In this document: piece after piece, positions 5,422-41,541 of the stretch | Numbering within the stretch: position 1 is the stretch's first letter | How the letters are laid out: the number at the start of each line of letters is the position of its first letter | From: Sediminivirga luteola | Lineage (GTDB): Bacteria; Actinomycetota; Actinomycetes; Actinomycetales; Brevibacteriaceae | NCBI RefSeq assembly: GCF_014639315.1 | Contig: NZ_BMFY01000007.1 | Span: 1-64,000 of the forward strand | Direction: 5' to 3' | DNA length: 64,000 nt | The notes under the pieces: model-generated | Seen by the model: only the letters and a program-made list of their open reading frames with translations | What the model was told of the DNA's origin: nothing | The model's database searches: none | Position numbers and translations under genes: made by a program

Positions 5422-5526
5422 TTGTGCATGCTCAACCGTACTCGTTGAGCATGCACAAATCAAGGCTTGCGCATGCTCAACGGTCAGTGTTAGAACAGGA
5501 CTCCGGGGCATTTTGAGCATGCTCAA
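5422..5526. promoter_or_regulatory. Array of four palindromic 14-mer operators (TTGNGCATGCNCAA)
   Basis: Copies: 5422-5435 TTGTGCATGCTCAA, 5445-5458 TTGAGCATGCACAA, 5467-5480 TTGCGCATGCTCAA, 5513-5526 TTGAGCATGCTCAA (perfect palindrome). The first two lie in a perfect inverted repeat with 15-base arms (5422-5436 and 5444-5458). Start-to-start distances are 23, 22 and 46, i.e. one unit of about 23 with one position skipped. The array sits between the XRE gene and the divergent ArdC-led operon. The best candidate ligand is the XRE protein; this is inference. Confidence 0.75.
5435..5463 (-). promoter_or_regulatory. Candidate sigma-70-type promoter of the XRE operon
   Basis: Read on the minus strand there is a TTGATT -35 (5458-5463) and a TACGGT -10 (5435-5440) separated by exactly 17 bases. 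The spacer is almost filled by operator copy 2 (5445-5458) and operator copy 1 abuts the -10 box, which would let a bound repressor block polymerase. Confidence 0.55.
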
Positions 5527-5670: not shown

Positions 5671-6750
5671 ATGGCATCGAACGAGGACGCCCGCGCGGCG
5701 CGAGAGGCGAAGCTCGACGAGCTGCACGAGAAGCTGACCGGCGCGGTCGAGTCGCTGGTCTCGGGTGACGACTGGCGCCAGGCGCTCGCCTTCGCGGCGC
5801 GGTTCCGGTCGCGGTCGTTCAACAACACGATGCTGATCTGGGTGCAGCACGAAGCCGCGTTCGAGGCAGGCCGCGTGCCCGAACCCTTCCCCACCCTGGT
5901 TGCCGGGTACCGGCAGTGGCAGGGGCTCGGTCGGCAGGTGATGAAGGGCCAGCCGGGCTACATGATCTTCGCGCCCGTGACGGGCCGGTTCGCCACCGCG
6001 ACCCCTGCCGATGCGGGCTCGTGGCGGCGGCTCGGGCCGAGGGAGACGCCGAAGGCCGGCGAGGTGGTGCGCTCGCGGATGGTCGGAGCCCGGCCGGCCT
6101 ACGTGTGGGATGCCTCCCAGACCGACGGAGAACCATTGCCAGTTCCGCCCGCTCCGACGCTGCTGGAAGGCGAAGCACCCTCGGGGCTGTGGGACGGGCT
6201 GGCCGGGCAGATTCGCGGCGCGGGGTTCGAGGTGCTGCGGGTGCCACACGAGGGGATGATCTCCGGCGCGAACGGCATGACCGACTATGAGGAGCGCACG
6301 GTAGCGGTGCGGGAGAACATGGACCCTGCTGCGCAGGTCAAGACGCTCGCGCACGAGCTGGCGCACGTGCTGATGCACGATCCCGACGACGAGGAAGCAC
6401 GTCAGCATCGCGGCATCCGCGAGGTCGAAGCCGAGTCCGTCGCGCTGATGATCGGTGCCGCGCACGGCATGGACACCACCGGGTACACGATCCCGTACGT
6501 CTCGACCTGGGCCGCCCGCGTGGACGGCCAAGAGCCCGTCCAGGTGGTGCAGTCCACCGGCGAGCGGGTGCGGAAGACCGCGCTGGCGATCCTCGACCAG
6601 CTCGACACGCTCCAGGTCGGCGACGGCACCCCGCCCGGACTCGAACGCGACGCTCCCAGTCCGCGCACCTCCCGTACGGCTGCGAACTCGGTGGAGACCG
6701 ATCGTCCGCGTGCTGCGTCGGCGCCAGCGCTGGCAGGGCGGAGGCTGTGA
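5671..6750 (+). CDS. ArdC-like antirestriction protein with ImmA/IrrE-type metallopeptidase domain
   Basis: 359 residues from the ATG at 5671, chosen because AGAGGAGG precedes it; an upstream in-frame start lacks an SD. Residues about 10-135 match the ArdC-type ssDNA-binding domain (SFNNTMLIWVQ; a GYRQWQGLGR segment; KGQPGYMIFAP). The C-terminal half has HELAHVLMH near residue 228, a zinc protease site, followed by a conserved EVEAESVA helix that can supply the third ligand. ArdC proteins protect incoming single-stranded plasmid DNA against restriction during conjugation, which suits the first gene of a transfer operon and a genome with methyltransferase genes nearby. The stop overlaps the primase start (GTGA). 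Confidence 0.85.
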   Translation: MASNEDARAAREAKLDELHEKLTGAVESLVSGDDWRQALAFAARFRSRSFNNTMLIWVQHEAAFEAGRVPEPFPTLVAGYRQWQGLGRQVMKGQPGYMIFAPVTGRFATATPADAGSWRRLGPRETPKAGEVVRSRMVGARPAYVWDASQTDGEPLPVPPAPTLLEGEAPSGLWDGLAGQIRGAGFEVLRVPHEGMISGANGMTDYEERTVAVRENMDPAAQVKTLAHELAHVLMHDPDDEEARQHRGIREVEAESVALMIGAAHGMDTTGYTIPYVSTWAARVDGQEPVQVVQSTGERVRKTALAILDQLDTLQVGDGTPPGLERDAPSPRTSRTAANSVETDRPRAASAPALAGRRL

Positions 6751-7430
6751 TGCCCGAAGCATTCGATGTCCTGGCGGCGCTCATTCGCGTGGATCGTTCA
6801 CCGAGCCTGGGGCTCGCGGCGCGGAGCCTCGCGGCGGCTGGCGTGCCCGTGTTTCCGTGCGTCGTCGAGGGGAAGCGTCCGCTGACCCGCCGTGGGTTCC
6901 TCGATGCGAGCAGCGACCCGGAACAGGTTGCCGCGTGGTGGTCGCGCACACCGAACGCGAACATCGGCATCCCGACCGGCGCTCCATCCGGCGTTGTCGT
7001 CGTCGATGTCGATGTCCACGGCCCCCACGACGGCCGCGCGGCGTTCCAGCGCGCCACCGACGCGGGGCTCGTCGATGGCGCGGGTCTGCTCGTGCGCACA
7101 CCCACCGGAGGCGCGCACGTGTACTTCCCGGCGACCCCGGGCCGCGAGCAGCGGTCGTGGCAGGCAGCCACCGCGGGCGTCGACTTCCGGGGCGACGGCG
7201 GCTACATCATCGCTCCTCCCTCCCGGCGAATCATCGACGGCAGTGTGTGCCGCTACGAGGTCGCGGACATCGCCGCGCACTCGGTCGGTCATGTGGACGC
7301 GGCCCGTCTGCGGGACTTCCTCGACCCGCGCCCCGTCGCTCCACTACGCGCCAGCAGCGGCTCGATGGATGAGGATGCTGAGCGGTTGGCGACGTGGGTC
7401 GCTGGGCGGGGTGAGGGCGAGCGGAACTGA
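6747..7430 (+). CDS. Bifunctional DNA primase/polymerase (Prim-Pol), ends at an in-frame TGA
   Basis: 227 residues from GTG 6747 (or ATG 6750). The archaeo-eukaryotic Prim-Pol domain spans about residues 20-195: PVFPCVVEGKRPL, the catalytic D-x-D in VVDVDVHG, RTPTGGAHVYF with its catalytic His, and the SWQAATAGVDFRG segment. The frame stops at TGA (7428-7430) after GEGERN, but the next 83 codons in the same frame continue the family (GLFWAACRLAEN) and match the uninterrupted module 2 homologue, which has CAG at this position. A CGA to TGA transition is the simplest explanation. The catalytic domain is complete, so a truncated primase could be active. It would prime the complementary strand after transfer. 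Confidence 0.8.
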   Translation: MMPEAFDVLAALIRVDRSPSLGLAARSLAAAGVPVFPCVVEGKRPLTRRGFLDASSDPEQVAAWWSRTPNANIGIPTGAPSGVVVVDVDVHGPHDGRAAFQRATDAGLVDGAGLLVRTPTGGAHVYFPATPGREQRSWQAATAGVDFRGDGGYIIAPPSRRIIDGSVCRYEVADIAAHSVGHVDAARLRDFLDPRPVAPLRASSGSMDEDAERLATWVAGRGEGERN

Positions 7431-7682
7431 GGCCTGTTCTGGGCTGCCTGCCGCCTCGCAGAGAACGGCGTCTCGCCCGCCGAGGCGCTCGATGCGCTGG
7501 GTGCTGCGGCACAGTCGGCGGGTCTGGGTGATCGCGAGATCACCACGACCGTGCGCTCCGCCTACCGAGCCACCCAGCCCGCATCCGAAGTGACGCCCGG
7601 CGGCCGGAGCCAGAGCGCGGGTCGGTGGTTCGGTCGCTCGGCGAGCCCACCGTCCGCAGCCTTGGGGAGGGCTGGGCTGTGA
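7431..7682 (+). pseudogene. C-terminal tail of the primase, separated by the in-frame stop
   Basis: Same frame as the preceding primase, ending at the TGA 7680-7682 that overlaps the DUF2637 start (GTGA). It encodes the helical C-terminal extension present in the module 2 primase (GLFWAACRLAEN..., ITTTVRSAYRAT). No SD and no start codon precede it, so it would be made only by stop-codon readthrough. Confidence 0.7.
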
Positions 7683-8362
7683 GGCGTGAATCGGGAGGGC
7701 GGCGCTGGGCCGCGATGACGGCGGTCGCGGGGACGGTGTTCATCGCCGCCGGGGCGTTCTGGCTGTCGTTCACGTCGTTGGCCGATCTGGCTGCTCGCTC
7801 CGGGATCGGGGCTGGGCAGGCGTGGGCGTGGCCGCTGATCGTGGACGGCATCATCGTCGTCGCCACGGTTGCCGTCGTCGCGCTCGCCGGGCAGCGCTCG
7901 GCCTGGTATCCGTGGGCGCTGCTGGTAGGCGGCGCGCTCGTGTCGGTGACGGCGAACGCCATTCATGCTGTCGTCGCCGCGGACGCCGACGTGCCAAGGA
8001 TGCTCGCGGCCTCGGTCGCCGCGGTGCCGCCCGTCGTGCTGCTGGCCATCACGCACCTGACCGTGATTCTCACCCGCACCACCGACCCCCATGCGGAACC
8101 CGCCACTGCCGACTCGTTCTCGACGAACACCGCGGATTCGATGCCTGCGCTGCCGCCTGGCGAGATGGAGGCCAACCGTCGCGATGAGGGTGTGGCGGAT
8201 CGGCGGGCGCTGGGGTGGGAGCTGCGCGAGGCGGGCTGGTCGAACAAGCGGATCGCCCGCGAACTCGGGGTGCATCCGTCGACGGTGGGCCGCTGGTTCG
8301 CCGTCGCGCACCTCACTGACACCACTGACACCGCCGACGAGCGGGAGGAGACGATCCCATGA
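7679..8362 (+). CDS. DUF2637 membrane protein with C-terminal helix-turn-helix
   Basis: 227 residues from the GTG at 7679, which overlaps the preceding stop and matches the start of the module 2 homologue. Four hydrophobic segments (about 12-35, 43-63, 70-92, 98-120) form the DUF2637 domain, seen in actinomycete plasmid and ICE transfer proteins. A polar linker follows, then a Hin/resolvase-like helix-turn-helix near residues 180-213 (LREAGWSNKRIARELGV, TVGRWF). The combination suggests a membrane-tethered DNA-binding protein that may bring element DNA to the transfer site; the domains are visible, the role is inferred. It overlaps the next gene by four bases. Confidence 0.8.
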   Translation: MRRESGGRRWAAMTAVAGTVFIAAGAFWLSFTSLADLAARSGIGAGQAWAWPLIVDGIIVVATVAVVALAGQRSAWYPWALLVGGALVSVTANAIHAVVAADADVPRMLAASVAAVPPVVLLAITHLTVILTRTTDPHAEPATADSFSTNTADSMPALPPGEMEANRRDEGVADRRALGWELREAGWSNKRIARELGVHPSTVGRWFAVAHLTDTTDTADEREETIP

Positions 8363-8763
8363 ACACCACTGAGAACCCCCAGCGCAACGATTCCGCGAGG
8401 CCCGATCCCGCACGGCTGGTGCCCGAGGAGCCGCGGGAGCGCCCCGAGTCGGTCGAAGTGATGAGTACGCCGGAGGCGGTGCGGGCCGCGCCGGTCGCCC
8501 GCGACGACAAGCGGCACGCGCTCGTTCGTGGGCGAGGCGTGGAGTGGGTGCGCCCCACTGACTTGATCGCCCGGCACTCGGCGCACGCGGCCGGGCGGGG
8601 TCTCGACTTCCAGGCCGAGCTGGCACGCCGCACCCGCACCCCGCTCGGTGCAGGTGTTCGTCGTCTCGGGGATCGCGCCCGGCGGTTGCCGCCGATCTCG
8701 GCGTTCGGGTGCAGCACCGCACCTGCCTCGCAGGTGTCCCGCTCCGGGGTCTCGATGAGTTGA
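8359..8763 (+). CDS. Conserved hypothetical ICE protein
   Basis: 134 residues, ATG start coupled to the DUF2637 gene (ATGA). The first 45 residues are acidic and low-complexity; the rest contains a segment shared with the module 2 protein at 49025: a VRPTDLIA block, an ARRTRTP block and a DRARRLPP(I/L)SAFG block. The C-terminal 15 residues differ from the homologue. No catalytic motif or membrane segment is visible and the function is unknown. Confidence 0.65.
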   Translation: MNTTENPQRNDSARPDPARLVPEEPRERPESVEVMSTPEAVRAAPVARDDKRHALVRGRGVEWVRPTDLIARHSAHAAGRGLDFQAELARRTRTPLGAGVRRLGDRARRLPPISAFGCSTAPASQVSRSGVSMS

Positions 8764-8823
8764 CGGTGGTGACAGGTCATGGCTGCGACGGCATCGGCAT
8801 GCAGGACGCGCTCGTGGGAGCGA

Positions 8824-8834
8824 GTGCGCACCTG
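8824..8834 (+). promoter_or_regulatory. Leader motif GTGCGCACCTG
   Basis: Copy of the recurring GKGYGCACCTG motif, 22 bases upstream of the start at 8857. It is followed by a CCAGGAGGTGCC stretch holding the SD. The homologous gene of module 2 has the same arrangement at 49553-49563. Confidence 0.5.
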
Positions 8835-8856
8835 CCTGCCAGGAGGTGCCGACACC

Positions 8857-9744
8857 ATGACCAGACCAACCAGCACCAGCACCGAGCAGACGGCCGACGG
8901 GGCTGAGGACTTCACCACCGGCGAGGGCCTGCGTGCCCTGCTCAATCGCCTCGCCGAGGGCGGCGAGGATGCCTGGGTTCACGACCCGGTGGCCCGCGAC
9001 CTGATGGAGTTCGCCGCCGACAAGTACCGCGCGCTCGCGAGGAAACACAGGCTCGACACCTGGGAAGCGGTGACGGCGGCGTTCGACGCGATGCAGTACC
9101 GCTCGACCCGTGAAGCCAACGATCCGTGGGCGATCATCACCCACGCCGTGCGGATCACCTGCGTCTACGAGGAACGCGCTCAAGGTCTGCTCTGCTCGGT
9201 GCACCAGGCCCGCCGCGCCCACGTCTCGGCGTTCCACGACCCTGAACGATTCTCCGAACGCGACACCGCGCTGGCCGACTACCATCCCGCGTTCCACACC
9301 ACCGACCTTCGTCCCAGCGACCTCGAACCGGAACCGCGCGACAGTCTCGGGTCAGCGCAAGCGTGCATGTCCGCTGGATCGGCGGCCGAGGACGCCATCG
9401 CGATGCTGTGCCTGCTCGACTGGCCGACCGACACGGCGCGTGCCGCTGTCGAGCACGTCTGCGGGGCGTTGATGAAGGCTGGCACCCGCCAGTCCGCCTA
9501 CGAGGCACTGCGCCGCGATCGGCACGCGCGGGCACTGCTCGACCTGCCGCGCCGCTCCTGGGCCGCGCTGCTGAAGGCGCTGCTCGGGAACCCGCACCCG
9601 GCTTACGTGGCCACCAGCAGCGGTCGCGGCATCCTGCTCCGGCTGCTGCTGGGCGAAACGCTCGACCTGCTGCTCCGCGACGACGATCTGATCCTTGCGC
9701 TCGCACTGGCCGCTCCGAGTGGTGGAGGCGGTGAGTCGTCGTGA
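8857..9744 (+). CDS. Conserved hypothetical ICE protein, about 295 residues
   Basis: Start at ATG 8857 with SD AGGAGGTG. Soluble and largely helical. Residues about 17-105 (FTTGEGLRALLNRL, DKYRALARKHRLDTWEA, DPWAIITHAVRI) and a C-terminal domain (about 170-265, EDAIAMLCLLDWPTDTARAAVEHV, YEALRRDRHARALLDLP) are well conserved in the module 2 copy, with a variable acidic linker between. It lies between the DUF2637 and ParB-like genes and overlaps the latter (GTGA). No motif assigns a function; the two helical domains and the position suggest a DNA-handling or replication accessory protein, a guess only. Confidence 0.75.
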   Translation: MTRPTSTSTEQTADGAEDFTTGEGLRALLNRLAEGGEDAWVHDPVARDLMEFAADKYRALARKHRLDTWEAVTAAFDAMQYRSTREANDPWAIITHAVRITCVYEERAQGLLCSVHQARRAHVSAFHDPERFSERDTALADYHPAFHTTDLRPSDLEPEPRDSLGSAQACMSAGSAAEDAIAMLCLLDWPTDTARAAVEHVCGALMKAGTRQSAYEALRRDRHARALLDLPRRSWAALLKALLGNPHPAYVATSSGRGILLRLLLGETLDLLLRDDDLILALALAAPSGGGGESS

Positions 9745-10742
9745 TCGAGCCACAGATCGGCAGCATCCAGCTCGACCGCACCGTCGAGTCGATCCTCGTC
9801 GGCACCCGGCACCGCGCCGACCTCGGCGACATCGACGCCTTGGCCGCGTCCATCGAGCGCGACGGGCTGCTGCAACCTCTCACGATCACCATCGATGGCG
9901 TGCTGGTGTGCGGGGCACGACGGCTCGCCGCGATCAAGATGCTCGGCTGGCGCACCGTCAACGTGTGGGTTCGCAGCGGTCTGTCTGACCGGCTCGGGCA
10001 GCTCCTCGCCGAGCAGGACGATAACATGCTGCACAAGCCCTACACACAGCTCGAAGCCGCCGGCCTGTACCGCGAGATCAAGCAGGTCATGGCCGAAGAC
10101 GCCGCCCGCCGGAAGTCCGCCACGCAGTTCAGCAGCGAGAACCAGCCGGGGAACGACGGTGGTGCAAACTTTGCACCACCGTCGAGCGGGCCACTCGGGA
10201 AGACCCGGGAGCAAGCGGCGGCGATGATTCCCGGCGGTGCGTCACACACGACGCTGGAGAAGATCGGCTACCTCGAAGACATCGCCAACAACCCCGCTCA
10301 GCCCGAGACGTTGCGCGCCGAGGCCGCCGCCGGACTGGAAAGGATCGAGGCCGGTGACCCGGTGCATCCGATCTACCAAACGATCCGCGACGCCGATACC
10401 ACCGCGCGGGAGCGGCGCGAGGCCGAGCTGCACGCCCGCGCCGAAGCAGCCGTGGCCCAGGCGAAGTCGATCAAGAAGGGCAAGCGCACCCCACCTCGGT
10501 CCCTTCCGGTCGTCACCGACGAAGGGCAGCCCGTCCGCTACCCGGTCCGGGCGTTCATCCAGACCTGGGGCGAGCTGACGAACTGGTGGACCCACTACGA
10601 CACCGACACCCTCGCCGCCGAACTGACCGACGAGCAGTTCGAGAACTTCCTCGCCACCACCGACGGCACCGTCCGGTTCGCCGACGCACTCCGCGTCGCC
10701 CGCGAAGGCACGGCGGAGCCGCCACGCCTCCGCGCGCTCTGA
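9741..10742 (+). CDS. ParB-like nuclease/CTPase-domain protein
   Basis: 333 residues, GTG start overlapping the previous stop. Residues about 5-95 are the ParB N-terminal domain: IDALAASIERDGLLQPL, then VCGARRLAAIKMLGW (the G-x-R-R box) and LGQLLAEQDDN. Residues about 155-185 (GKTREQAAAMI onward) look like a helix-turn-helix, and the C-terminal half is a charged helical region ending in a conserved WGELTNWWTHYD block. ParB-type proteins bind centromere-like sites and use CTP; in ICEs they are thought to aid maintenance or regulation. A perfect 29-base palindrome lies inside the gene (10155-10183), in the linker just before the HTH. Confidence 0.85.
   Translation: MIEPQIGSIQLDRTVESILVGTRHRADLGDIDALAASIERDGLLQPLTITIDGVLVCGARRLAAIKMLGWRTVNVWVRSGLSDRLGQLLAEQDDNMLHKPYTQLEAAGLYREIKQVMAEDAARRKSATQFSSENQPGNDGGANFAPPSSGPLGKTREQAAAMIPGGASHTTLEKIGYLEDIANNPAQPETLRAEAAAGLERIEAGDPVHPIYQTIRDADTTARERREAELHARAEAAVAQAKSIKKGKRTPPRSLPVVTDEGQPVRYPVRAFIQTWGELTNWWTHYDTDTLAAELTDEQFENFLATTDGTVRFADALRVAREGTAEPPRLRAL
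10155..10183. repeat. Perfect 29-bp palindrome inside the parB-like gene
   Basis: Arms GACGGTGGTGCAAA and TTTGCACCACCGTC around one central C. It encodes the GGANFAPP linker. The module 2 homologue has a different palindrome at the same protein position (50858-50882). Confidence 0.85.
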
Positions 10743-10761
10743 CCGCCGGCGTGGGTGCGGG

Positions 10762-10772
10762 GTGCGCACCTG
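10762..10772 (+). promoter_or_regulatory. Leader motif GTGCGCACCTG
   Basis: Identical to the copy at 8824. It lies only six bases upstream of the ATG of the VirB8-like gene, as does its module 2 counterpart at 51605-51615. No good SD is seen here. Confidence 0.5.
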
Positions 10773-10778
10773 CTCGGC

Positions 10779-11471
10779 ATGAGCCCTGCATCCACTGACA
10801 CCCGGAACCGCCGCCGACTCGTCACCCTCATCGCCGCCGGTATCGTCCTGCTGCTCCTCACGGGGGTCGGCGTCTACGGACTCCTGACTGGCCCACGCAA
10901 CAGCACCAGCACCGATCCCGACCCGGAGCCCGGCCCGGTCACCACGGCACCGCCGACCGTGGAACCGAGCACGCCGCGACCGCCGGGGGTTCCTGCGGTT
11001 CCGCGCTCAGCCGATCCCGAGGCATTCGCTCGGGGCGTCGCGTCAACGCTGTTCGCCTGGGACACGGCTTCGGGGCTGTGGCCGCTGGACTACACCTCGG
11101 CGATCCTCACGGTCGGTGACCCCAGCGGAGACGAACAGGCCGGGCTGGCCTCCGACGTGGCCGCGTACCTGCCGACCCGCGACGCCTGGATCGAGCTGCG
11201 GCAGTATGCCACCCGCCAGCACCTCACCATCGACACCGCGTACGTCCCCGCCGCCTGGGCCGACGCGGTAGCGCAGGCCCAGCCGGGGCAGCTCGCGGCA
11301 GGGACGACGGCCGTAACGATCGAGGGCACCCGCCACCGTGCCGGAGTCTGGAACGGCCAACCGGTCACCAGCGAGCATCCGGTCGCGTTCACCGTGTTCG
11401 TCGTCTGCGCACCGACCTACCCGACCTGCCACCTGCTGCGGCTGTCTCAACTCGACAACCCGCTGCGCTGA
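10779..11471 (+). CDS. VirB8-like conjugal transfer protein
   Basis: 230 residues from ATG 10779. A short basic N-terminus is followed by one membrane segment (about residues 14-35), a Pro/Thr-rich linker (about 38-75), and an extracytoplasmic domain of about 155 residues beginning with EAFARGVASTLFAWDT, the pattern of NTF2-fold VirB8/TcpC-type subunits of Gram-positive conjugation machines. VirB8 proteins form part of the periplasmic or wall-side scaffold of the channel. The neighbours (wall hydrolase, VirB6, VirB4) fit. Assignment rests on topology and context, as no catalytic motif exists in this family. Confidence 0.7.
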   Translation: MSPASTDTRNRRRLVTLIAAGIVLLLLTGVGVYGLLTGPRNSTSTDPDPEPGPVTTAPPTVEPSTPRPPGVPAVPRSADPEAFARGVASTLFAWDTASGLWPLDYTSAILTVGDPSGDEQAGLASDVAAYLPTRDAWIELRQYATRQHLTIDTAYVPAAWADAVAQAQPGQLAAGTTAVTIEGTRHRAGVWNGQPVTSEHPVAFTVFVVCAPTYPTCHLLRLSQLDNPLR

Positions 11472-11484
11472 AGAGGTTGGCGTC

Positions 11485-13095
11485 GTGTTCCGCAAAGCCG
11501 CCATCGCAGCCCTGGCGCTGCTGCTCTTCGCCCCCGCCGCCGCACTCCTCGGCATCGGGGTGCTGATGAACCCCGCTGCCGCCTACTGCGCCACCCCTGC
11601 CGGTACCGCGAACCTCGGCCCGATCCCGGACTCGCTCACCGTGACCACCACGAACGGCGAGACCTTCACCCTGAATCGTCAACAGCTCACGCACGCGGCA
11701 ACGATCATCACCGTCGGCAACGGCATCACCGACGTGGGCCGCCCGGGAATCAAGATCGCGCTGATGGCCGCGCTCACCGAGTCCACACTGCGGATGCTCA
11801 CCAACACCGGCGCATACCCTGAGTCGGCGAACTACCCGAACGACGGCAACGGCGGCGACCACGACTCCCTCGGCCTGTTCCAGATGCGCCCCCAATCAGG
11901 ATGGGGCACCGTCGCAGAGTTGATGGACCCGCAGTACCAGGCCCGAGCGTTCTTCGGCGGGCCGACCGGACCGAACTACCCCTCGCCACGCGGCCTGCTC
12001 GACATCCCCGGCTGGCAACAGATGGACCCCGGCGAAGCCGCCCAAGCCGTCGAGGTCTCCGCCTACCCCGACCGCTACCGCAACTACGCGCCCGTCGCCG
12101 ACAGCATCCTCGCCGCCCTCACCAACGGCGGCAGCACTCCGGTTGGCGTGGGTGGCCCGGCGGTCTCGTCGTCGCGGGTGGTATTCCCACTGCCCGAGGG
12201 CACCTGGGTGCTGTCCTCGCCGTTCGGGATGCGGGTGCACCCGATCACGGGCGAACGAAAGATACACACCGGCACCGACTTCGCCGCACCCGACGGCACG
12301 CCGATCCTCGCCGCCGCGGACGGCACCGTCACCATCGCCGAGTTCTCCGGCGGGTACGGCGGCCTCATCGTCATCGAGCACACCATCGCCGGCAAGACCG
12401 TCGCGACCGCTTACGCACACATGTGGCAAAGCGGCATCCACGTCCGTCCCGGCGATCGGGTGAGCGCCGGGCAGCACATCGGCGATGTCGGCTCCTCGGG
12501 CATGAGCACCGGCGCACATCTGCACTTCGAGGTCCGGCCCGGCGGCACGAACGGTGAGGCAATCGACGCCGCCGCCTGGCTCAACGAGCACGGTGCCGCG
12601 AACCTGCCGACGGCGACCAGCGGATCACCCGCTGCCTGCAACAACGCCACTGCGGGGACGCCGGTCGGTGTCGATGGAGACCCCGACCGGCTCGTCGACG
12701 ATCCCACCAGCTCGGGCAAGATCACCGCCCGCCTGCTCCACCTCTACCAGCAGACCCTCGCCACGTTCCCCGACACCGGCTGGGGCTGCTACTCACCGCG
12801 CCCCGGCACCAAGTCCGAGCATCCCCTCGGCAGGGCGTGCGACATCACCTTCGGCAACCGCATCGGCCAGCGACCCAACCCAGAACAGCTCGACGCCGGC
12901 TGGAAGGTCACCAACTGGATGAAGGACAACGCCGACGTGCTCGGCGTCGAGTACCTGATCTGGCAAGGCCAAATCTGGTCCCTCGCCCGCGACTCCGACG
13001 GCTGGCGACCGTACAACGGCGGAGGCATGCACGACCCCGCCTCCATCACCGGAGGCCACTACGACCACCTCCACGTCACAGTCAAGGTGGGGTGA
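11485..13095 (+). CDS. Three-domain peptidoglycan hydrolase of the transfer system (transglycosylase-like, M23, carboxypeptidase-like)
   Basis: 536 residues from GTG 11485. A hydrophobic N-terminus (residues 6-30) is a signal or anchor segment. Residues about 65-200 resemble lytic transglycosylases (ALTEST with a candidate catalytic Glu near residue 99, then HDSLGLFQMRP). Residues about 225-360 are an M23 endopeptidase (HTGTDFAAPDGTP, YAHM, GAHLHFEV: zinc His and Asp ligands). The C-terminal 110 residues have SEHPLGRACDITF and YDHLHVT, the H-x6-D/H-x-H pattern of extensin-like or DD-carboxypeptidase folds. It would locally open the cell wall for the channel (VirB1-like role). Confidence 0.85.
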   Translation: MFRKAAIAALALLLFAPAAALLGIGVLMNPAAAYCATPAGTANLGPIPDSLTVTTTNGETFTLNRQQLTHAATIITVGNGITDVGRPGIKIALMAALTESTLRMLTNTGAYPESANYPNDGNGGDHDSLGLFQMRPQSGWGTVAELMDPQYQARAFFGGPTGPNYPSPRGLLDIPGWQQMDPGEAAQAVEVSAYPDRYRNYAPVADSILAALTNGGSTPVGVGGPAVSSSRVVFPLPEGTWVLSSPFGMRVHPITGERKIHTGTDFAAPDGTPILAAADGTVTIAEFSGGYGGLIVIEHTIAGKTVATAYAHMWQSGIHVRPGDRVSAGQHIGDVGSSGMSTGAHLHFEVRPGGTNGEAIDAAAWLNEHGAANLPTATSGSPAACNNATAGTPVGVDGDPDRLVDDPTSSGKITARLLHLYQQTLATFPDTGWGCYSPRPGTKSEHPLGRACDITFGNRIGQRPNPEQLDAGWKVTNWMKDNADVLGVEYLIWQGQIWSLARDSDGWRPYNGGGMHDPASITGGHYDHLHVTVKVG

Positions 13096-25938: not shown

Positions 25939-28900
25939 CTATCGATATGCGGGTTTCGCGTCGACTTTGAGCCACTTCCCTGCTCGGGCGACGCTGAGCA
26001 GAGAGGGCGCCGACGCTGAGCTGTCGCGTGATGCGGTTGCTCCATCGTCTCGCCCTGTTGCCGGCGGCGCTGAGGTGCGAAGTTGGTTCAGAGCGGCTAG
26101 TTCCGGGACGTCGGTGACGGCTGTGATGGCTCGCTTGTTCAGCCATCCGTAACGGGCGATCTGTTCGGCGGCCCGCAGGACTGTGCTTCGACGTGGTGAT
26201 GGGAGTTGACCGAACACGGACTCCAGCGTCGGCAACAGCTCAGTGATGACTGAGCTGGAGGCGGTGCACCACAGGGCGAGTGACCACTCCGCCTCGGCCA
26301 GGTCATCGTCGAGGACATCGAGCTGTTCGCGCCACCACTGAGCGTTGCCGCTGTTGGCCCGAGCTTGAGCGAGAAGTTCGGAGGGATGGCTGGCGCTTCC
26401 GAAGGCCGCTGAGCCGGGCTTCTTCGTGTAGGCGGGCGGGAAGGGAGATGCAGCGCCGATGATCGCGATCTCGGACGCAAGCCAGCACCGTCCAGTGTGT
26501 TCGTGTAGTGCGGCAGCGGTGTCCGCCCAGGGGAACGTGCTGCCTTTCTGCCCGGCCTTGAATGCTCGTTGCTTGGCGATCTGGGTGTACGGCGAACCTG
26601 CTCGTCTGAGCTGGTTGATCGCCTCGCTTCGGCGACGTTTCGACTTCTCATCACTGCCGACGAATCCGGTCTTGGAACTGGTGAGGAAGTCGCTCGGCGA
26701 CAAGGCCGCTGCGACTTGTGCGGGCATGGACCGGGTTGATGTCACGCAAGGGCATTCACCGTCCAAGACTGCGTCAAGAAGCGCTGCTTCGAGTGAGCTT
26801 CCTGGCGTAGGGATGAGGCCCGTGCTGAGGAAGAGCTCGGCGGCGCCTTCGGACAGGTCGATGTCCTCGAACGATGCGGTGACACCCGCGCCGGCCTCGC
26901 ACTCGGCACCGAGTCTGAGCCATGCGTTTTGCTGCGGTGTGCCGATGGCTGCGGCGAGCTGCCCGTACCACCATGCGCTGAATTGGCTGCGTTGGTTCAG
27001 CAACTCGCGCAGAGCGCGAACTCGCCGCTTGTTGTCGCTGTCCGCCGGGTCCTTGCTGATCAGAGTGGTGAGGCGGACCCAGGTGGGATCGGCTCCGTCC
27101 TGGTCAGGGAGGTCGGGCAACTCGGGCAGAGCGATGATGTCGCGGCGGTCGAGCGCGGATAGCAGAATTGTGATTCCGGCGTCCGAGCAGAGTGCGGTGA
27201 GGATCTTGCGTGCCTCGCGGGGGCGGCGCAGGAAGACACCGTCGGTGAGCAGTGCCCACGCGGCGAGGTAGGAGGCGGGCGAGGTGCTGTGGGCCAGCTC
27301 CTCTTCGATCCCGGCGGTCAGGGGGTAGATGCCATTGCCCTTTGCGTTGCCTCCGTAGAACCTAGCGGTGTTGAGCCAGTACGGCCGGCGCAAGAGTTCG
27401 CGCAGCACGGCCGTGCTGTCGAAGGCCGAGTTGTCCTCGCCCGCGTTGTGATAGAGGAACCGTGCGGCGAAGTACTCTCGTAGGGACAGGACTTCGAACT
27501 CGTAGGTGCCGTCGACTTTGCTGGTCAGCGCCCACAGACGGTCGCTGGCGCCCTCGAAGAGCTGGTCGACGATCGATTCACGGTTGCCGTAGGTGCGCTG
27601 GAAGTGCCGCATGGCTTCCTTGAGTTCGTCCACGCTCATGCGGCCGTTGATCTGCGATTCCTCGGTGTGGGCGTGGAGGTACCAGCCGAGGAACGGGATG
27701 ATCTCGAGCAGCTCTTCCTTGTGGTCCTTCACGGCCCTGGGGTGCTTGTTCGCCTCGCGAGCCAGGAGAAGCTCGACGTACTTGTCGTAGAGATCAGTGC
27801 GTTGCGTGGGGGTGGCTGCTCCTTGCTGGTGAAGTAGGTCGAGCAGGATCGTCAGCTGCATCGGATTGCCGGCGAGTTCGTTGATGTAGGGCTCGCGGCT
27901 CTTCTCCTTGAAGCTCTTCCGCAGGGCGCGACCGTCCTTGCCTCTGATCCCGCGGACCGTGCACCACTTGCGCAGGTAGGCGTCACGCTGCTCGACGGTG
28001 AGCTGGTTGAGGGTCACGACCTCAAACAGGTCGGGTGAGGGCTCGGGCAACTCGCCGGCGCTGGGGCGCGTGGTGACGACCACTCTCGGTGGGTCGGTGT
28101 ACGCCTTCCCGCGACCGACGAACTTGTCGATCTCTTTGACGATCCTGCCTCGGATGGTGGCGCTGCCGACTTCGTCGAGTCCGTCGAGCACGACGAGGCT
28201 GGGGACGCGCTCGAAGATGTCCTGGACCGTCTTCGCGCCAGCGGGGATACCGCCGCTCTCGTGCGTCAGCAGGTCGGCGAGGAAGCACTCGATCGTTGCC
28301 TGTTCACCCTTGCGCGCTTTGGCCTTGCGTTGCTTGCGGTCCTCGGAGTGGTCCCACACGTCGTTGCCGCCGAGCCAGAGCGCGTAGTCGCTCAGGTCGA
28401 GTCTGACGGGGAACCGCGGCCGCTCCAGCTCGGTTAGTGAGTCAGGTCTGTCGCTTTCGGGGATGAATGACCCGCGGTGGGTCTGGCAGAGGTATTGGCT
28501 GAGTGTCGACTTGCCCTGTCCTGGCGCGCCACGGACGAGGGTGAAGGGCGCCGATGCGCGCAGTAGGTAGGCGGCGGCACCGCCCAAAGTGGTCGGTGAT
28601 TGTGCTTGCAGATGCTTGCTGGCCACGGTGTGTACGCGGTCGGCGGTGACGTCGACGAACAGGTCCACGACCTTCTCTCGGTCCACATCGGACTGGCTGA
28701 ACTTGACCCGTTTGTCGTCCTCCCATTGGGCGGCGGCGACCTTGCGGATGAGGTCACGATGCGCCTTGTCCTTGCCCTCACCGACATGCTCGGCGACGAG
28801 GTATCGGACAAGGTCCCACCCCGCGAGCATCTCGGCGTAGGCCCACTTGGTCTCGGTCGGGGCGTTGTCGACCCACGGGTTGAGCGCCTCGCGCCAGATG

Positions 28901-29307
28901 CAGGTCATCTGTTCGTAACCGAAGTCCTTCGCGTACCCCTGGAGCTTCTTGTCCAGTCGGTCGAACGTGCCCGAGTCCTCCTTGGCCGTGCTCCCCACGT
29001 TGGTGACCAACGTGTAGTGGCGGACCCCCTGTGCAGCCAGGCGGCGCAGACTGGCTTCCTCGTTCTTTACCACCTGGTCGAGCCAGGAGACCGGGTCCTT
29101 CTCCTTGCCACTGAGCGACCACTTGACCTGATAGACGAGCACCTTCGAGACGTCGACCTTGCGCAAGCCGTCTCGGCCGCCGTCGGCCTGACGCAGGGCC
29201 ATCGGGATGTAGTCGGGAAACTGGTTCGCAAGCAGAGCGCTGACGAGCTGCTGGAAGTCCTGGTCCCCGAGACGCTCGTAGAGGTAGCGATGTCGACTCT
29301 CGGGCAC
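25939..29307 (-). CDS. Nuclease-NACHT STAND protein (Avs/bNACHT-like antiphage sensor)
   Basis: 1122 residues from GTG 29305-29307, chosen because TAGGAGG lies six bases upstream. Residues 1-70 look like a PD-(D/E)xK (Mrr/RecB-like) nuclease: GGRDG with Asp near 46 and Q-V-K at 60-62. A central STAND ATPase follows: Walker A GAPGQGKST at 260-268 and Walker B LVVLDGLDEVG at 371-381, typical of NACHT, then TTRPSAGE as sensor. The remaining 600 residues are helical and repeat-like, probably the target-sensing region. Such proteins recognise phage components and then cleave DNA. It is the last gene of the minus-strand defence island, 216 bp below the RyR-like gene. Confidence 0.85.
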   Translation of the reverse strand: MPESRHRYLYERLGDQDFQQLVSALLANQFPDYIPMALRQADGGRDGLRKVDVSKVLVYQVKWSLSGKEKDPVSWLDQVVKNEEASLRRLAAQGVRHYTLVTNVGSTAKEDSGTFDRLDKKLQGYAKDFGYEQMTCIWREALNPWVDNAPTETKWAYAEMLAGWDLVRYLVAEHVGEGKDKAHRDLIRKVAAAQWEDDKRVKFSQSDVDREKVVDLFVDVTADRVHTVASKHLQAQSPTTLGGAAAYLLRASAPFTLVRGAPGQGKSTLSQYLCQTHRGSFIPESDRPDSLTELERPRFPVRLDLSDYALWLGGNDVWDHSEDRKQRKAKARKGEQATIECFLADLLTHESGGIPAGAKTVQDIFERVPSLVVLDGLDEVGSATIRGRIVKEIDKFVGRGKAYTDPPRVVVTTRPSAGELPEPSPDLFEVVTLNQLTVEQRDAYLRKWCTVRGIRGKDGRALRKSFKEKSREPYINELAGNPMQLTILLDLLHQQGAATPTQRTDLYDKYVELLLAREANKHPRAVKDHKEELLEIIPFLGWYLHAHTEESQINGRMSVDELKEAMRHFQRTYGNRESIVDQLFEGASDRLWALTSKVDGTYEFEVLSLREYFAARFLYHNAGEDNSAFDSTAVLRELLRRPYWLNTARFYGGNAKGNGIYPLTAGIEEELAHSTSPASYLAAWALLTDGVFLRRPREARKILTALCSDAGITILLSALDRRDIIALPELPDLPDQDGADPTWVRLTTLISKDPADSDNKRRVRALRELLNQRSQFSAWWYGQLAAAIGTPQQNAWLRLGAECEAGAGVTASFEDIDLSEGAAELFLSTGLIPTPGSSLEAALLDAVLDGECPCVTSTRSMPAQVAAALSPSDFLTSSKTGFVGSDEKSKRRRSEAINQLRRAGSPYTQIAKQRAFKAGQKGSTFPWADTAAALHEHTGRCWLASEIAIIGAASPFPPAYTKKPGSAAFGSASHPSELLAQARANSGNAQWWREQLDVLDDDLAEAEWSLALWCTASSSVITELLPTLESVFGQLPSPRRSTVLRAAEQIARYGWLNKRAITAVTDVPELAALNQLRTSAPPATGRDDGATASRDSSASAPSLLSVARAGKWLKVDAKPAYR

Positions 29308-29523
29308 GGGCTGCCTCCTAGACTCCAACCCGATCGTCTCGCTGGTGCGGTCGGGAAACCTCTGTTGTGTTCTTCAATTGAACCCGACGACTCCGACAGG
29401 CTTGAGGAACTACACGCCGCATGCCGAGGTCCATGACTTTGCCCGAATCGACCCCCGTCGCAGAAGTAGGGACGGCTGCCCCGGCGGAGCGCCTGGAGCC
29501 CGTGTCCGACGAGTTGCGGACAC

Positions 29524-29838
29524 TCACGTCCCCTCACTGCGCCTTGCGCCGTGTGAACCTGGGTCGGACTGCCCGAGTGCCTTCATGAGGGTCGGCAGAT
29601 ACCGCTGAACCTGCTCGCGATCGCTGTCCTTCTCGTCCTCTGTCAGGTCCTCGTAGCGGGTCGTGGCTTGTCGAGTCCATTGATCGACGAGGTCGGCCGG
29701 GATACGCAGTGACCCGTCCGGGAGTGGTTCACACTTCTTGTGCAGGTACAACTGCCAGTGGGCCCATCGTTCGTGCTCGATCGACGCGAGTTCTTCGAGG
29801 AGTTCCGGCTTTTGAAGCGCGTCGTTGATGCTAGTCAT
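29524..29838 (-). CDS. Small RyR-domain-like protein of the TIR-caspase operon
   Basis: 104 residues. ATG shares one base with the caspase stop (TGATG), so it is co-translated with it. The pattern LLEELASIEHERWAHW (His22, Trp25), then YEDLTEDEKDSDREQV (Tyr62, Leu65, Glu69-Lys70, Asp73-Arg74) and a final LPTLM helix matches the RyR domain signature (H-x2-W, Y-x2-L-x3-EK-x2-DR). The 30 residues between replace the usual GW-x-YG loop, so the match is partial. RyR domains have been proposed by comparative genomics to bind nucleotide signals; beside a TIR enzyme this suggests a cADPR-type ligand. The fold is inferred from the motif only. Confidence 0.65.
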   Translation of the reverse strand: MTSINDALQKPELLEELASIEHERWAHWQLYLHKKCEPLPDGSLRIPADLVDQWTRQATTRYEDLTEDEKDSDREQVQRYLPTLMKALGQSDPGSHGARRSEGT

Positions 29839-30830
29839 CAGATCAGGTTCTCGTTGACGAGATTCCAGTAGTGCTGACCGAGGACAGTCAACTCACACGA
29901 CTTGCGCTGCATCGCGGCATGCCACATGTGTGGCGCATCAACGGGGCGAACGAGGTTGACGCGAACGTAGGCCTGCAAGACCTTGAACACAGCGGTGTGT
30001 TCTGGGTCAGGGGGAGGGATCGTGGGGTCTTTGAGCTGTTCGGTGAAGCGTTCGGGCTCGTATGAAGGGTCAAGTGGGAAGTCGTAGTCGGCAGATGGAA
30101 AGTGAGTGGTAAGCGCCTGGAGCGATGCAAGGGGGATAGGAGCCTCCGCTTTGCGAAGGGACACGAAAGTCTTGACGTTGGTCTTGAAGACGGGGCGCTG
30201 AGCCCAGGGGCCGAGCGACTGGTCGATGTGCGCGTAAACGCTTCCGGGTGTCACATCACCGACGAGGTTGGCTGCCGCGCCGTTGAGTGCGTCGACGAAT
30301 AGGTTGGTGAAGACGCCCGCGCCACCTCCGGGAACTTCCAGCGCGTACTGGTTCTCAGTCGACGCCGTGAGGATGGTGACGCCGTCGTTGAGTTCGGCCA
30401 TCGATCTGGTGATGGCGTCGTTACCGGCGGCGCCGCTGTGACAGCTGTCGAGGATGATGACCTTGTTGCGTGCTGGCGAAGTGTTGGCCATCGTCATGAC
30501 CTCATGAAGAGCGAGTCCATCATCGCCATCTGCTGAGTCGCTGGCGCAGAGGAACCCTCCGGTGTCTTCGACGTACCCATGCCCTGCGAAGTAGAACAGT
30601 GCGATCTCGGCGTCGTCGGCGAAAACCTCACGGACGGCATCCTTGAGGTCCTTCTTGATCACCGGCTGACCGGCTCCAGTACCTGTGAGGAGCTGAGGAG
30701 TCGTAAAGTTGAGCGTGCCGTCGGCATGGCGTTCGAGCGCGGCACGAACTGAGTGGGCATCGTTGACACAGCCGCTCAGAGAACCGATGTGGTCGTAGTG
30801 ATCTATACCGACGATCAGCGCCTTGCGCAT
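29838..30830 (-). CDS. Caspase-like protease (peptidase C14), TIR-linked
   Basis: 330 residues, ATG 7 bp after the TIR stop with SD GAGGCGGAC. The caspase-hemoglobinase fold is clear: [19 protein letters not shown] at 3-21, the catalytic His in FAGHGY (His84) and the catalytic Cys in ILDSCHSG (Cys130). The C-terminal 120 residues are a separate helical domain that could bind a ligand or the partner. TIR plus caspase-like protease is the composition of type IV Thoeris, in which a TIR-made cyclic ADP-ribose derivative activates indiscriminate proteolysis and stops phage growth. The fold is certain; the signal is inferred. Confidence 0.88.
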
Positions 30831-35041: not shown

Positions 35042-35655
35042 GGGTTGGTCCCGAGGACGAAGGCGAGCTGGGCGAGCACCACATCGCGGTAGTCCAGATC
35101 GGCCGAGGCTCGGTGCCCTAGCACGAGGGGGTAGAGCAGGCCGTCCATTGTCGCGACCACCACGTCCACGATCGCGGTGACCGCGAACCGGGGAGAGAAC
35201 GAGCCAGACTCCACCCCACGCTCCATCGCGTCTAAGAACGGTTGTCGGTACTGTTCGGCCAACGCGGCGGCGTGGGCGCGCAGCTCGGCATCGTGAGCGG
35301 CGGCGGTCCAGAACTCCATCAGCATCCGCCACGTCGGCACCGGCGTGGACAAGCCGCGGTCGACCAGCGCGACCAACTGCTGCCACGGGTCCTCGAACCC
35401 TGCGGCCAGCTCGGCCAAGGCCTCGACCTCGCCCGAGGTCGCACCTTGAAGTGCCTCGATGAGCATGTCCTCACGGGACCCGAAGTAGCCCTGCAATGTC
35501 GACACCGCGACACCCGACGCCTGCGACACGTCGGCGAACCGGGTCGCGGCATACCCACGCTCGGACAACACCTCCACGACCTGCTCCAGCACCTGTGCTC
35601 GTCTGGTCCCGCCAGCACGCCGCGTCCGCGTCAACCTATTCTCGCTCATGCTCAT
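35038..35655 (-). CDS. TetR family transcriptional regulator
   Basis: 205 residues; starts at 35655 or at the second ATG six bases on. N-terminal TetR HTH at about 18-62 (VLEQVVEVLSERGYAATRFADVSQASGVAVSTLQGYFGSREDML), then a helical ligand domain of TetR_C type. The start codons lie inside a perfect 42-bp inverted repeat (35644-35685), the evident operator, so it represses itself and the NmrA-ASCH-VOC genes fused behind it. Confidence 0.9.
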   Translation of the reverse strand: MSMSENRLTRTRRAGGTRRAQVLEQVVEVLSERGYAATRFADVSQASGVAVSTLQGYFGSREDMLIEALQGATSGEVEALAELAAGFEDPWQQLVALVDRGLSTPVPTWRMLMEFWTAAAHDAELRAHAAALAEQYRQPFLDAMERGVESGSFSPRFAVTAIVDVVVATMDGLLYPLVLGHRASADLDYRDVVLAQLAFVLGTNP

Positions 35656-35685
35656 ACCGTATCACCATACGGTATGAGCATGAGC
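35644..35685. promoter_or_regulatory. TetR operator: perfect inverted repeat with 19-bp arms
   Basis: Arm 35644-35662 GCTCATGCTCATACCGTAT, spacer CACC, arm 35667-35685 complementary. The core ATACGGTAT/ATACCGTAT is a typical TetR-type half site. The operator covers the tetR start codons. Confidence 0.8.
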
Positions 35686-35692
35686 GGTCCTG

Positions 35693-40900: not shown

Positions 40901-41495
40901 CGATCCCACCGCGCCCGACCCTGGTGGCCGCGACGCGCTCCTCCAGCATGGTCATCGTGTCGCGCAGCGCAGAGTGATGGGCCTGCGCAAGCAGCGCTTG
41001 CGTCCCGGCGTCGGCGACGCCCCACACTACGCTGAGCGACTTCGGCGGCGAGAACGTCAGATCGAAGCCTGCAACCGCGGTGCGCGGCTTCTTCGCAACC
41101 TCTTCCTCACGGATGCGCTCGATGGCTTCCTGCCGTTGCGCACCGGTCAGCGACGCATCCAGCCGCGCAACCCTCGCCGCAATCCGCTCCCGCGGGGGAA
41201 GCAGCCGCGGATACGGCGACCCGAGCTTCTTGCCGGTCACCGGATGCACGCCCTCGCCGAGCAGCCTGGCGAGGTGCTCCTCGGTCACCGTGTCGCCGTC
41301 CGCGAGCGCTGGACCCTGGCCGGTGTCGAGACTGGACAGGCCCGTGCCAAGCCACGTTCCTGGAGGACAGCCGGACTCGGTGTAGTACCGGGTCAGCGGA
41401 GTGCCCATGTCCCGGTCGCCGTCGCCCGCGGCGACTGACCTCAACAGGTATTCGTACCCGCGGCCCGACGACATCACGCGGATCGTCATCACCAC
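37920..41495 (-). CDS. MobF (TrwC/TraA-type) relaxase-helicase
   Basis: About 1190 residues from GTG 41495 (ATG 41489 also possible). The relaxase domain has a Tyr pair at 37-38 (RYYTESGC) as candidate nucleophile, GFDLTFSPPKSLS at 143-155, and the metal-binding His triad around DPQLHTHVVVSNKV (224-226). The C-terminal SF1B helicase has Walker A GPAGAGKTT near 560, VLVDEAS near 628, GDWAQLSA, and a C-terminal TVHRAQGSTVD motif. It nicks oriT and unwinds the transferred strand. It is the only relaxase in the window and is transcribed away from module 2. Its SD is buried in a 14-bp hairpin. Confidence 0.92.
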   Translation of the reverse strand: MVMTIRVMSSGRGYEYLLRSVAAGDGDRDMGTPLTRYYTESGCPPGTWLGTGLSSLDTGQGPALADGDTVTEEHLARLLGEGVHPVTGKKLGSPYPRLLPPRERIAARVARLDASLTGAQRQEAIERIREEEVAKKPRTAVAGFDLTFSPPKSLSVVWGVADAGTQALLAQAHHSALRDTMTMLEERVAATRVGRGGIARMPVAGVIASAFDHYDSRAADPQLHTHVVVSNKVQGEDGRWRTLDSRTLHRATVAMSASYNAFLTDHTARLLGVSWAPVDRGKDRNTGWEIEGVPAELIAEFSRRTTGTSDGADGIEQVKNRLIAEYVAEHGRQPSAATIARLRQQATLETRPDKELHSLAELTAEWRERATVVLGEDATTWAGLLLAQGSTEARLRADDVGLEQVQDIAAVVLMEVGNRRATWTRWNLHAEAMRQIMGVRFATTDDRTAVLDQIVARAEEASLRLTPDYDRAVPDHYRSMDGSTRFQPADQVAYSSQDILDAETRLLHHSQTADAPQLSGRLLARHISRKIKGVQLAADQAAAITVIAGSGLTLDLLVGPAGAGKTTALRALHRAWTAAHGKDSVIGLAPSAAAAEVLGDSLGVRAENTAKFLYEHHRDRWNLQPGQLVLVDEASLAGTLALDRITTHAAEVGAKVLLIGDWAQLSAIETGGAFGMLVRHRHKVPELTDVRRFANEWEKSASLGLRHGNAGILETYDTHGRLHDGELDAMLDAVYDAWRADRAAGRSTLMIAGNGDTVAELNQRARADFIEAGVVEADGVRLHDGTAAGVGDLVVTRRNDRRLSTGRSWVKNGDRWQITYRYDDGSCAVRRLGKGDIPRGKALVLPAGYVREDLELGYASTVHRAQGSTVDTAHALIDPEKASRELLYVALTRGRESNHAYVVQPDPHEVEPHLDQPDTATVTEQLARVLARSDAELSATETLKLEADRHASLSTLLDEYDVLAREAQVDRWAALLDVAPFPEDVADDVFTSPYYDHLEGALARHEAAGHDVTAILTALAPSLTPGEDPTDPAAQLATSIDQATTRLPEGRSTRARRAAGLIATPAEPIPNDMRAALNERAALIEAAAQQALHHAINAGEDWTAHIGRPSANLRARNAWLTAATTIALYRHRYDIIGPAPLGNPKDITRAQQSDEYRAASAALRRAQSAAERSAQPIPRRDAQRVDQSRRL

Positions 41496-41499
41496 GGCC

Positions 41500-41530
41500 G
41501 GCCCCTTCCGAGACGATCTCGGAAGGGGCC
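41500..41530 (-). promoter_or_regulatory. 14-bp hairpin occluding the relaxase ribosome-binding site
   Basis: GGCCCCTTCCGAGA (41500-41513) and its complement (41517-41530) with a 3-base loop. On the minus strand the second arm contains GGAAGGGG, the SD six bases before GTG 41495, so folding should block translation of the relaxase. Confidence 0.6.
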
Positions 41531-41541
41531 GCCTCAGCGGT

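Follow-up and report, generated by a model that had tools for sequence, protein, structure and literature searches.

A DNA dyad inside ParB-like genes of mobile elements changes together with residues of the encoded protein

Self-encoded sites and two ParB-like genes

The Streptomyces plasmid SCP2 encodes the ParB-like protein ParT, and the only parS of ParT has been mapped by ChIP-seq and BLI to an 18-bp inverted repeat within the parT coding sequence itself (PMC12260392). The DNA-binding protein lambda O has its inverted-repeat sites (ori-lambda) inside its own gene (PMC5043065). Lambda O belongs to a different protein family. Chromosomal ParB and Noc bind a palindrome as dimers, with few HTH-area residues setting specificity; their DNA preference is conserved per family, and their sites lie mostly near oriC (PMC7383237). 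In B. subtilis, parS lies inside spo0J. KorB of RK2 and BisD of ICEclc (PMC7423338) are ParB-fold regulators of conjugative elements. KorB is known to control a conjugative element, and the sites of KorB and BisD lie in promoter regions. Neither is known to have a self-encoded site. We found no report of covarying self-encoded sites in ParB-like genes in the open-access literature searched (the open subset of PubMed Central), and the word start "palindrom" is absent from the main text of a survey of ParB-CTPases (PMC12704722).

The window, which is the whole 64-kb stretch of DNA analyzed here, contains two ParB-like genes with one dyad of this kind each and no array of sites. ParB-like gene 1 (9741-10742, plus strand, 333 aa) encodes an N-terminal ParB-CTPase fold, a linker that is coded by the dyad and predicted to be disordered, a predicted HTH domain, and a C-terminal domain. 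Dyad 1 (10154-10184, strandless) is 31 bp long and reads CGACGGTGGTGCAAA-C-TTTGCACCACCGTCG, with 15-bp arms, 100% complementary, around a 1-nt centre (10169). When the pairs are numbered outward from the centre (d1, d2, and so on), d9-d1 are T GG T GC A AA, and d10-d12 form a CGG/CCG core common to the whole family. ParB-like gene 2 (50442-51563, plus strand, 373 aa) belongs to a second element and hosts dyad 2 (50858-50882, strandless), which is 25 bp long with 12-bp arms and a 1-nt centre (50870); its central pairs are AC/GT, versus AA/TT in dyad 1. An earlier note, made from sequence alone, had reported both palindromes, placed them in the same linker (GGANFAPP versus GGATVAPP), and stated that their bases differ while both remain perfect. 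All of this held. The first palindrome is larger than the 29 bp with 14-bp arms given there, and the arms of the second are 12 bp rather than 11 bp; each earlier arm length is one short if the 1-nt centre is counted.

Both dyads share a codon register in which the centre is a third codon base; each third position therefore faces another third position, and the first and second bases of a codon face the second and first bases of its partner. The dyad codons spell D-G-x-y-n1-n2-y'-x'-P-S, and for the dyad to hold, the first two bases of the y' and x' codons must be reverse-complementary to those of y and x. Both dyads stop about three codons short of the first predicted HTH helix. Perfect arms of at least 12 bp (loop at most 12) occur at five places in the window, both dyads among them; each dyad is the longest perfect repeat of its own gene, and gene 2 also contains two imperfect repeats of 12-13 nt. 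Apart from the gene 2 dyad, the dyad 1 29-mer has no further copy in the window within 10 mismatches, and no second copy of dyad 1 was found in the genome within 3 mismatches. The source genome carries four such ParB-like genes. The possibility that a mobile palindromic insert (REP- or RPE-like) landed in the gene would fit an in-frame palindrome in the linker, but is all but excluded by the single genome copy within 3 mismatches, by a register that is constant across the family, and by the base-by-base covariation described below.

Other repeats of the window were recorded in their own right. The longest perfect inverted repeat (35643-35686, 20-bp arms, 4-nt loop) lies near the boundary of two minus-strand ORFs. 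A 15-bp perfect inverted repeat with a 7-nt loop (5422-5458) lies shortly before the ArdC/ImmA-like gene at 5572. Another 15-bp perfect inverted repeat with a 3-nt loop (41499-41531) lies directly upstream of a TrwC-type relaxase gene (37920-41495, minus strand) and is a possible candidate for a nic/oriT region. A half-site-like sequence 979 bp upstream of gene 1, GACGGTGGTG, was considered as a second site and rejected as not cognate, because it is kept in relatives with another dyad type (L039, L041, L042, L044, and L059).

The gene 1 protein matches PHROG 12047. Pfam ParB_N matches (E 6.8e-5 for gene 1, and 1.1e-5) fall just under the curated cutoff, a profile match to Spo0J (1vz0) has E 6.8e-6, and Noc was matched by sequence too. 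Foldseek returned Noc (7nfu, E 2.5e-4), with ParB and KorB also among the fold matches; VIA Z was only 5-6 for ParB chains, and the TIGR00180 match was far under its cutoff. On balance, the N-terminal domain fulfils the fold criterion of the ParB/Noc CTP-clamp family, the ParB-CTPase fold. The AF2 model is mediocre (mean pLDDT 65, pTM 0.28). It places helices at residues 151-161 (low confidence; block 151-160 at 42) and 169-183, with pLDDT below 50 for residues 124-164 (the linker and the first HTH helix) and 77-94 for blocks 171-240. No Pfam HTH model matched, and the HTH is therefore a prediction. In gene 1 it spans residues 151-183 (10191-10289, plus strand), based on the AF2 helices and covariation; in gene 2 it lies at 50892-50990 (plus strand) by alignment.

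The likeness to SCP2 ParT consists of a candidate site inside the own gene of a ParB-like protein, here without binding data. In a like scan of SCP2 parT, the best repeat was an 18-bp perfect one, the letters of which were not compared with the published parS. ParT has no CTPase domain and has a ParA partner, whereas the window protein has a ParB-CTPase-like N-domain and no ParA was found. Moreover, the site here is about 27 bp long with an odd centre, lies before the HTH, and covaries across a family. Lambda has several iterons, whereas the window genes have one dyad and encode a ParB-like protein. Chromosomal ParB and Noc resemble the window protein in the fold of the N-domain and, as inferred here, in the use of a dimer on a palindrome with few specificity residues; unlike theirs, the site here is a single in-gene one that changes with the protein.

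The dyad is kept as a dyad while its bases change

Relatives were drawn from the source genome itself, from 60 genomes of the family (14 with a match), and from 396 genomes of the order (53 with a match); the order-level search was supplemented by 20 more stretches, and further relatives came from GTDB contigs (51 loci), plasmids, and phages. From 125 loci scanned, 105 were kept that scored above 150 bits against a window protein, with the duplicates L005 and L006 removed; this cut was set on protein similarity and not on the dyad. The earlier note had named homologues lacking the palindrome as what would refute its claim. This was checked, and the dyad was present at the orthologous place in 101 of the 105 loci (91 distinct genes, some fetched from two collections), with scores of 7 to 15, the values 7 and 8 occurring once each. 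Among the four loci without a dyad, L095 matches no further than residue 127, and L097 is interrupted by an internal stop (codon 251) and its dyad has decayed. L102 and L103 look intact, yet have no dyad. As a side observation, the decay in L097 is as expected if the dyad persists only while the gene works.

The linker motifs of these loci include GGANFAPP, GPAKFAGP, GAGKFPAP, GPGKFPGP, GGGKFPPP, GGEKFSPP, GSAKFADP, GGGQCPPP, GGATVAPP, and GGVVTTPP, among others. Their residues are chemically unlike, yet the codons are still complementary or nearly so: G, P, A, S, R, E, T, and V occur at x, A, G, E, R, D, and V at y, and T, N, K, Y, Q, E, D, P, V, and H at the first central codon.

Selection on the dyad was evaluated with 68 distinct 31-mers from the 101 loci, the four dyad-less loci being left out. 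Across d1-d14, 892 of 952 paired cells were complementary, compared with a mean of 657 and a maximum of 697 in 2000 shuffles of the right arm. The third-position pairs (d3, d6, d9, and d12) were complementary in 268/272 cells versus 93 expected from the codon usage of each gene, and 2000 codon-usage draws never exceeded 120. Pairs d10-d11 (GG/CC) were invariant in 68/68, and d12 was complementary in all 68 (C/G in 64, T/A in 4). Complementarity fades beyond d13, which suggests a site of about 27 bp. The median site score was 13 (of 14), compared with 5.6 after synonymous recoding, and only 2/68 genes held an equal or better palindrome elsewhere. Compensatory change was measured on 32 sites, hand-chosen as diverse. 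Changes on both sides were found in 12 of the 14 pairs and in 98 cells, compared with 27.5 ± 3.9 after shuffling and 9-31 when the partner was slid. One of the five measures, that of further pair types, was near chance (25 versus 21.2, a value reached by 25 of 500 shuffles). These results show that homologues keep the dyad as a dyad while its bases change, synonymous positions included; the synonymous-site complementarity and the compensatory pairs lend strong support to the inference of the earlier note that the dyad itself is under selection.

Two rival explanations bear directly on these data. According to the first, the GGAxxAPP protein motif is conserved and the palindrome arises by chance of the code, the DNA being unselected. 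In its favour, codon positions 1-2 of Gly/Pro and Ala/Ala are mutually complementary in this register. However, this leaves unexplained the excess at third positions, as well as the codon complementarity that persists at x, y, and the first central codon despite widely differing residues there, and the linker is predicted to be disordered. We regard this explanation as all but excluded. According to the second, which was among the roles raised in the earlier note, selection favours a hairpin in the coding part of the mRNA, which would act on translation pausing or stability or be bound by a regulator. As RNA, the segment does form a hairpin of 14 bp with a 3-nt loop (61-nt stretch, -32 kcal/mol, z -3.6), but any dyad this long folds as RNA. 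Furthermore, the innermost pair d1 is unpaired in the RNA fold, yet it is complementary in 66/68 sites (A/T in 61, C/G in 4, T/A in 1), 5 of which carry a changed pair. A pair that cannot form in RNA thus covaries, and protein residues follow the bases of the dyad, as shown below; the hairpin is disfavoured and very unlikely to be what is selected.

Dyad base pairs go with residues of the same protein

Mutual information with the dyad pairs was calculated for 316-318 protein columns in 89 distinct, weighted proteins, with the dyad-coding residues 137-150 excluded. The top columns were T171 followed by K174 for d1-2, P164 followed by G166 for d3, T170 for d4-5 (H169 being second or third), K154 for d6, K125 followed by K154 for d7-8, and K125 for d9. 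Residues 151-183 (33 columns) took four of the top five places for d1-2 and for d3, two each for d4-5, d6, and d7-8, and none for d9. Columns outside the HTH, namely H209, L304, Y267, T275, and R226, were also high in these lists.

The associations are sharp at the level of residues. An acidic residue 154 was found in 39/39 proteins with d6=C and in 0/48 with another d6; K, R, or Q at 170 in 27/27 with d4=G and 0/52 with d4=C; an acidic residue 125 in 9/10 with d9=G and 0/76 with d9=T; and T171 in 66/68 with d2=A and 2/16 with another d2. These groupings were picked after the first 89 proteins had been viewed. Pairs d6 and d9 are third codon positions, and the codon of d9 encodes glycine in all 101 loci, so the linker protein can hardly tie these bases to distant residues. 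In gene 1, where residues 154, 170, and 171 of the predicted HTH are tied to d6, d4, and d2, the codons concerned (all plus strand) are those of K154 (10200-10202), identified by covariation, and of T170 and T171 (10248-10253; T171 tied to d1-d2) at the start of the predicted recognition helix. The codon of K125 (10113-10115), which goes with d9, lies at the end of the helix preceding the linker. Gene 2 aligns with K154, T170, and S171 at these HTH positions, and S171 accompanies its AC/GT dyad centre.

The contribution of shared descent was evaluated by independent contrasts on the supported branches of a tree built from the protein without residues 118-189. On this tree d6 changed at least 20 times, d4 at least 16, d9 at least 9, and d2 at least 7. 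The contrasts agreed in 11/11 cases for d6/154 (p 0.001), 10/10 for d4/170 (p 0.002), and 8/9 for d9/125, with 1 undecided (p 0.008). Support for d2/171 was weaker (3.5/6, with 2.5 undecided and none opposite, p 0.25). An earlier tree test with broader groups and a quick tree gave 6 same, 0 opposite, and 1 undecided for y and the helix (p 0.031), 3.7/4 for x and 154 (p 0.125), and 2.4/3 for the centre (p 0.25). Taken together, particular base pairs of the dyad are associated with particular residues of the protein that the gene encodes, and the majority of these residues fall within the predicted HTH.

Predictions were fixed before 15 blind loci were fetched from 394 genomes of the class. Left out of the blind set were 7 rows already used (from the source genome, G137, G189, and G270), and 4 extra loci, seen before the predictions and hence not blind, were added; many held-out rows are closely related to one another. 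The dyad was present in 19/19 held-out loci, the lowest scores being 7 and 8. With residue 154 located by an xxRxxAA anchor, the d6/154 rule held in 15/15 blind and 4/4 other loci (13 with C and D; 6 with T and K, T, or S). This anchor was adopted only after gaps in the MAFFT alignment had been seen; by the MAFFT column alone, 14 of 15 readable loci were right, L156 was wrong, and 4 were gaps. Judged by eye, d4=C occurred without K, R, or Q at 170 in 13/13, d9=T with a non-acidic 125 in 15/15, and d2 agreed with the T171 rule in 18/19, with L283 (A with S) being wrong. Neither d4=G nor d9=G occurred in this set.

Natural swaps were also found. Over most 30-nt bins, L042 and L059 share about 90% identity with gene 1, but identity falls to 60 and 63% in bins 420 and 450, which hold the inner dyad and the HTH start; a further drop, to 67%, occurs at 750. 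Both loci have a dyad of the GCG-GG type, and their HTH reads GRADEQ...SYKTLDK versus GKTREQ...SHTTLEK in gene 1. Between L050/L051 and L057, y changes from GG to GC on both arms along with SYKT to SHTT. Pairs of genes from one genome shared a specificity triplet in 0/18 cases, where 7-11% is expected per pair (P 0.13-0.26); as evidence for orthogonal sites within one genome, this is suggestive only.

A further rival holds that the dyad is bound by another protein, such as a host regulator, a nucleoid protein, a recombinase, or a relaxase. It is left standing by the lack of binding data for the gene's own product. However, residues of the gene's own product can be predicted from the dyad pairs, both across independent branches and in further genes, and four elements with four dyads in one genome are unlike the target of one host factor. 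This rival is very unlikely. For the recombination or oriT role that the earlier note had listed, nothing was found in favour, and the covariation is the only test bearing on it.

A putative self-encoded address and its possible roles

We propose that the palindrome serves as a binding site on double-stranded DNA, about 27 bp long and centred on one base, which is recognised by a dimer of the gene's own ParB-like product. This reading is very likely (probability about 0.88); the covariation with the predicted HTH of the same protein supports the parS-like or operator role suggested in the earlier note, in the absence of binding data. Each HTH of the dimer would read one half-site. Residue 171 (and 174) would read d1-d2, and residue 170 (and 169) would read d4-d5; residue 154 would read d6, with T, G, or A accompanied by K/R or a neutral residue and C by D/E, and residue 125 would go with d9. 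Because the N-domain resembles the CTP-clamp (ParB/Noc/KorB) fold, the site is probably the single loading place from which a CTP clamp would slide onto its own element, which is inferred from fold similarity only.

The neighbours of gene 1 encode an ArdC/ImmA-like protein, a primase-polymerase (6747-7430, upstream of gene 1), DUF2637, an M23 peptidase, DUF6112, a TraG/VirD4 coupling protein, an SSB, and a serine recombinase; with this gene content the locus resembles an integrative conjugative element. For the gene 1 protein, full-length matches of 100% identity occur in records under the names Agromyces mediolanus and Tessaracoccus caeni, and matches of 99% in Propionicimonas and Leifsonia records; such near identity in records of other genera indicates that gene 1 travels. 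No ParA family was found among 42 ORFs (25 plus, 17 minus) at 5572-25907 with Pfam E up to 0.01, a search that does not exclude shorter ORFs or a host ParA. The upstream gene (8779-9744, plus strand), which overlaps the start of ParB-like gene 1, has no Pfam or NCBIfam match and is therefore not a recognisable ParA. A scan of 7000-12000 for sigma-70-type promoters found none. Two side observations concern possible defence genes. Downstream of the serine recombinase of element 1, the stretch 25939-30830 holds a NACHT-type NTPase gene (weak match) beside a caspase-like gene on the minus strand, possibly a defence island, where a PADLOC model matches the caspase gene but none matches the NACHT gene. 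An SNF2/helicase gene at 42266-44044 resembles DpdE and ZorD of defence systems (PADLOC).

Three consequences of binding were ranked. Because no ParA was found and the gene precedes transfer genes, we prefer control of the own operon, by autoregulation or by silencing of the downstream transfer genes, and hold it to be nearly as likely as not. Partition or marking of the element without a ParA of its own may be considered second. As a rival in its own right, a centromere for active partition of the excised element is possible: the protein is ParB-like, and SCP2 ParT has its parS inside parT (PMC12260392). However, the element ORFs searched offer no ParA partner, and an integrated element needs partition only when excised. 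Replication initiation comes third and is unlikely. In that rival the dyad is a replication origin and the protein its initiator, like lambda O. It is favoured by a self-encoded site with type specificity, by the primase-polymerase gene upstream, and by the annotation of the next gene in phage phiAH14a as a replication protein; against it stand the single dyad instead of an iteron array, the ParB-CTPase-like fold, and the finding that DUF6551, rather than a helicase loader, follows the gene in both Staphylococcus phage IMEP5 and M. abscessus phage phiGD20-1. The data do not resolve whether the downstream role is regulation, partition, or replication, and the ranking is a tentative proposal.

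Outside the close family, dyads that differ in sequence occupy the corresponding position immediately ahead of the HTH. Among relatives of Pseudomonas phage phiAH14a (IMG/VR), 13/16 loci scored at least 8, with an even centre. By eye, GDTRD accompanies CCGG-type sites in 10 loci, and GKTRD accompanies GTGG-/GGTGG-type sites in L121, L148, and the imperfect L140, a pairing of site and residue in the same sense as in the window family. Staphylococcus-type phages were less perfect, with 3/11 IMG/VR loci scoring at least 8 and 8 at 7.0. Among 18 loci below 150 bits, a repeat of at least 8.5 preceded the HTH in 7 (L019, L116, L119, L121, L122, L123, and L125), L117 had a repeat of 7.0, and no clear repeat before the HTH was found in L108-L115, L120, and L124. 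Vibrio phage eugene (L122) has 12-bp arms, and L119 and the 50% identical L185 both have 14-bp arms of different sequence. Single-query scans of viral contigs with the two window genes and L122 found no relative. In 22 further ParB-like genes found with PHROG 12047, which we take to be ordinary chromosomal-type ParB from their length and search context (they are unannotated), no linker dyad of at least 8 was found; in one of these controls, L177, the N-domain contains an 11-bp repeat (5-nt loop).

Repeats before the HTH were also observed in ParB-HTH-methyltransferase fusions. Out of 88 further loci, 14 were scanned, and tblastn found no ParB part in 10 of these. The repeat of L155/L266 has 15-bp arms, the L155 fusion gene lying at 697-1980 on the minus strand. 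L267/L179 score 8.5 before the HTH, with their best repeat, of 11 bp, in the methyltransferase part, and L193 has an imperfect repeat scoring 9.0. It is possible that the fusion methyltransferase acts on or near its own site.

In kind, the window genes likely join ParT and lambda O, the difference being a family whose address was rewritten repeatedly together with its reader. The dyad and the HTH lie within about 140 bp and would therefore pass on together, as a single cassette, in both inheritance and exchange; related elements that share a cell may in this way keep their addresses distinct. A bolder reading, towards which we lean only slightly, is that proteins of a class widespread among mobile elements carry their own DNA address, as an identity tag, in the reading frame that encodes them, in conjugative elements of Actinobacteria, in phages of Firmicutes and Proteobacteria, and in ParB-methyltransferase fusions. 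If it is true, each protein would load on its own element and no other, related elements within a cell would remain separate, and about 100 matched gene-site pairs would spell a residue-by-base recognition code.

A gene that stores both a DNA-binding protein and its target turns the sequence database into a table of matched protein-site pairs, which makes specificity change in such proteins directly testable; in this family the switches are frequent and consistent. Such genes could yield many mutually independent ParB-site pairs for labelling DNA, and could show how one stretch of DNA is selected simultaneously as code and as binding site and how mobile elements keep their identities apart.
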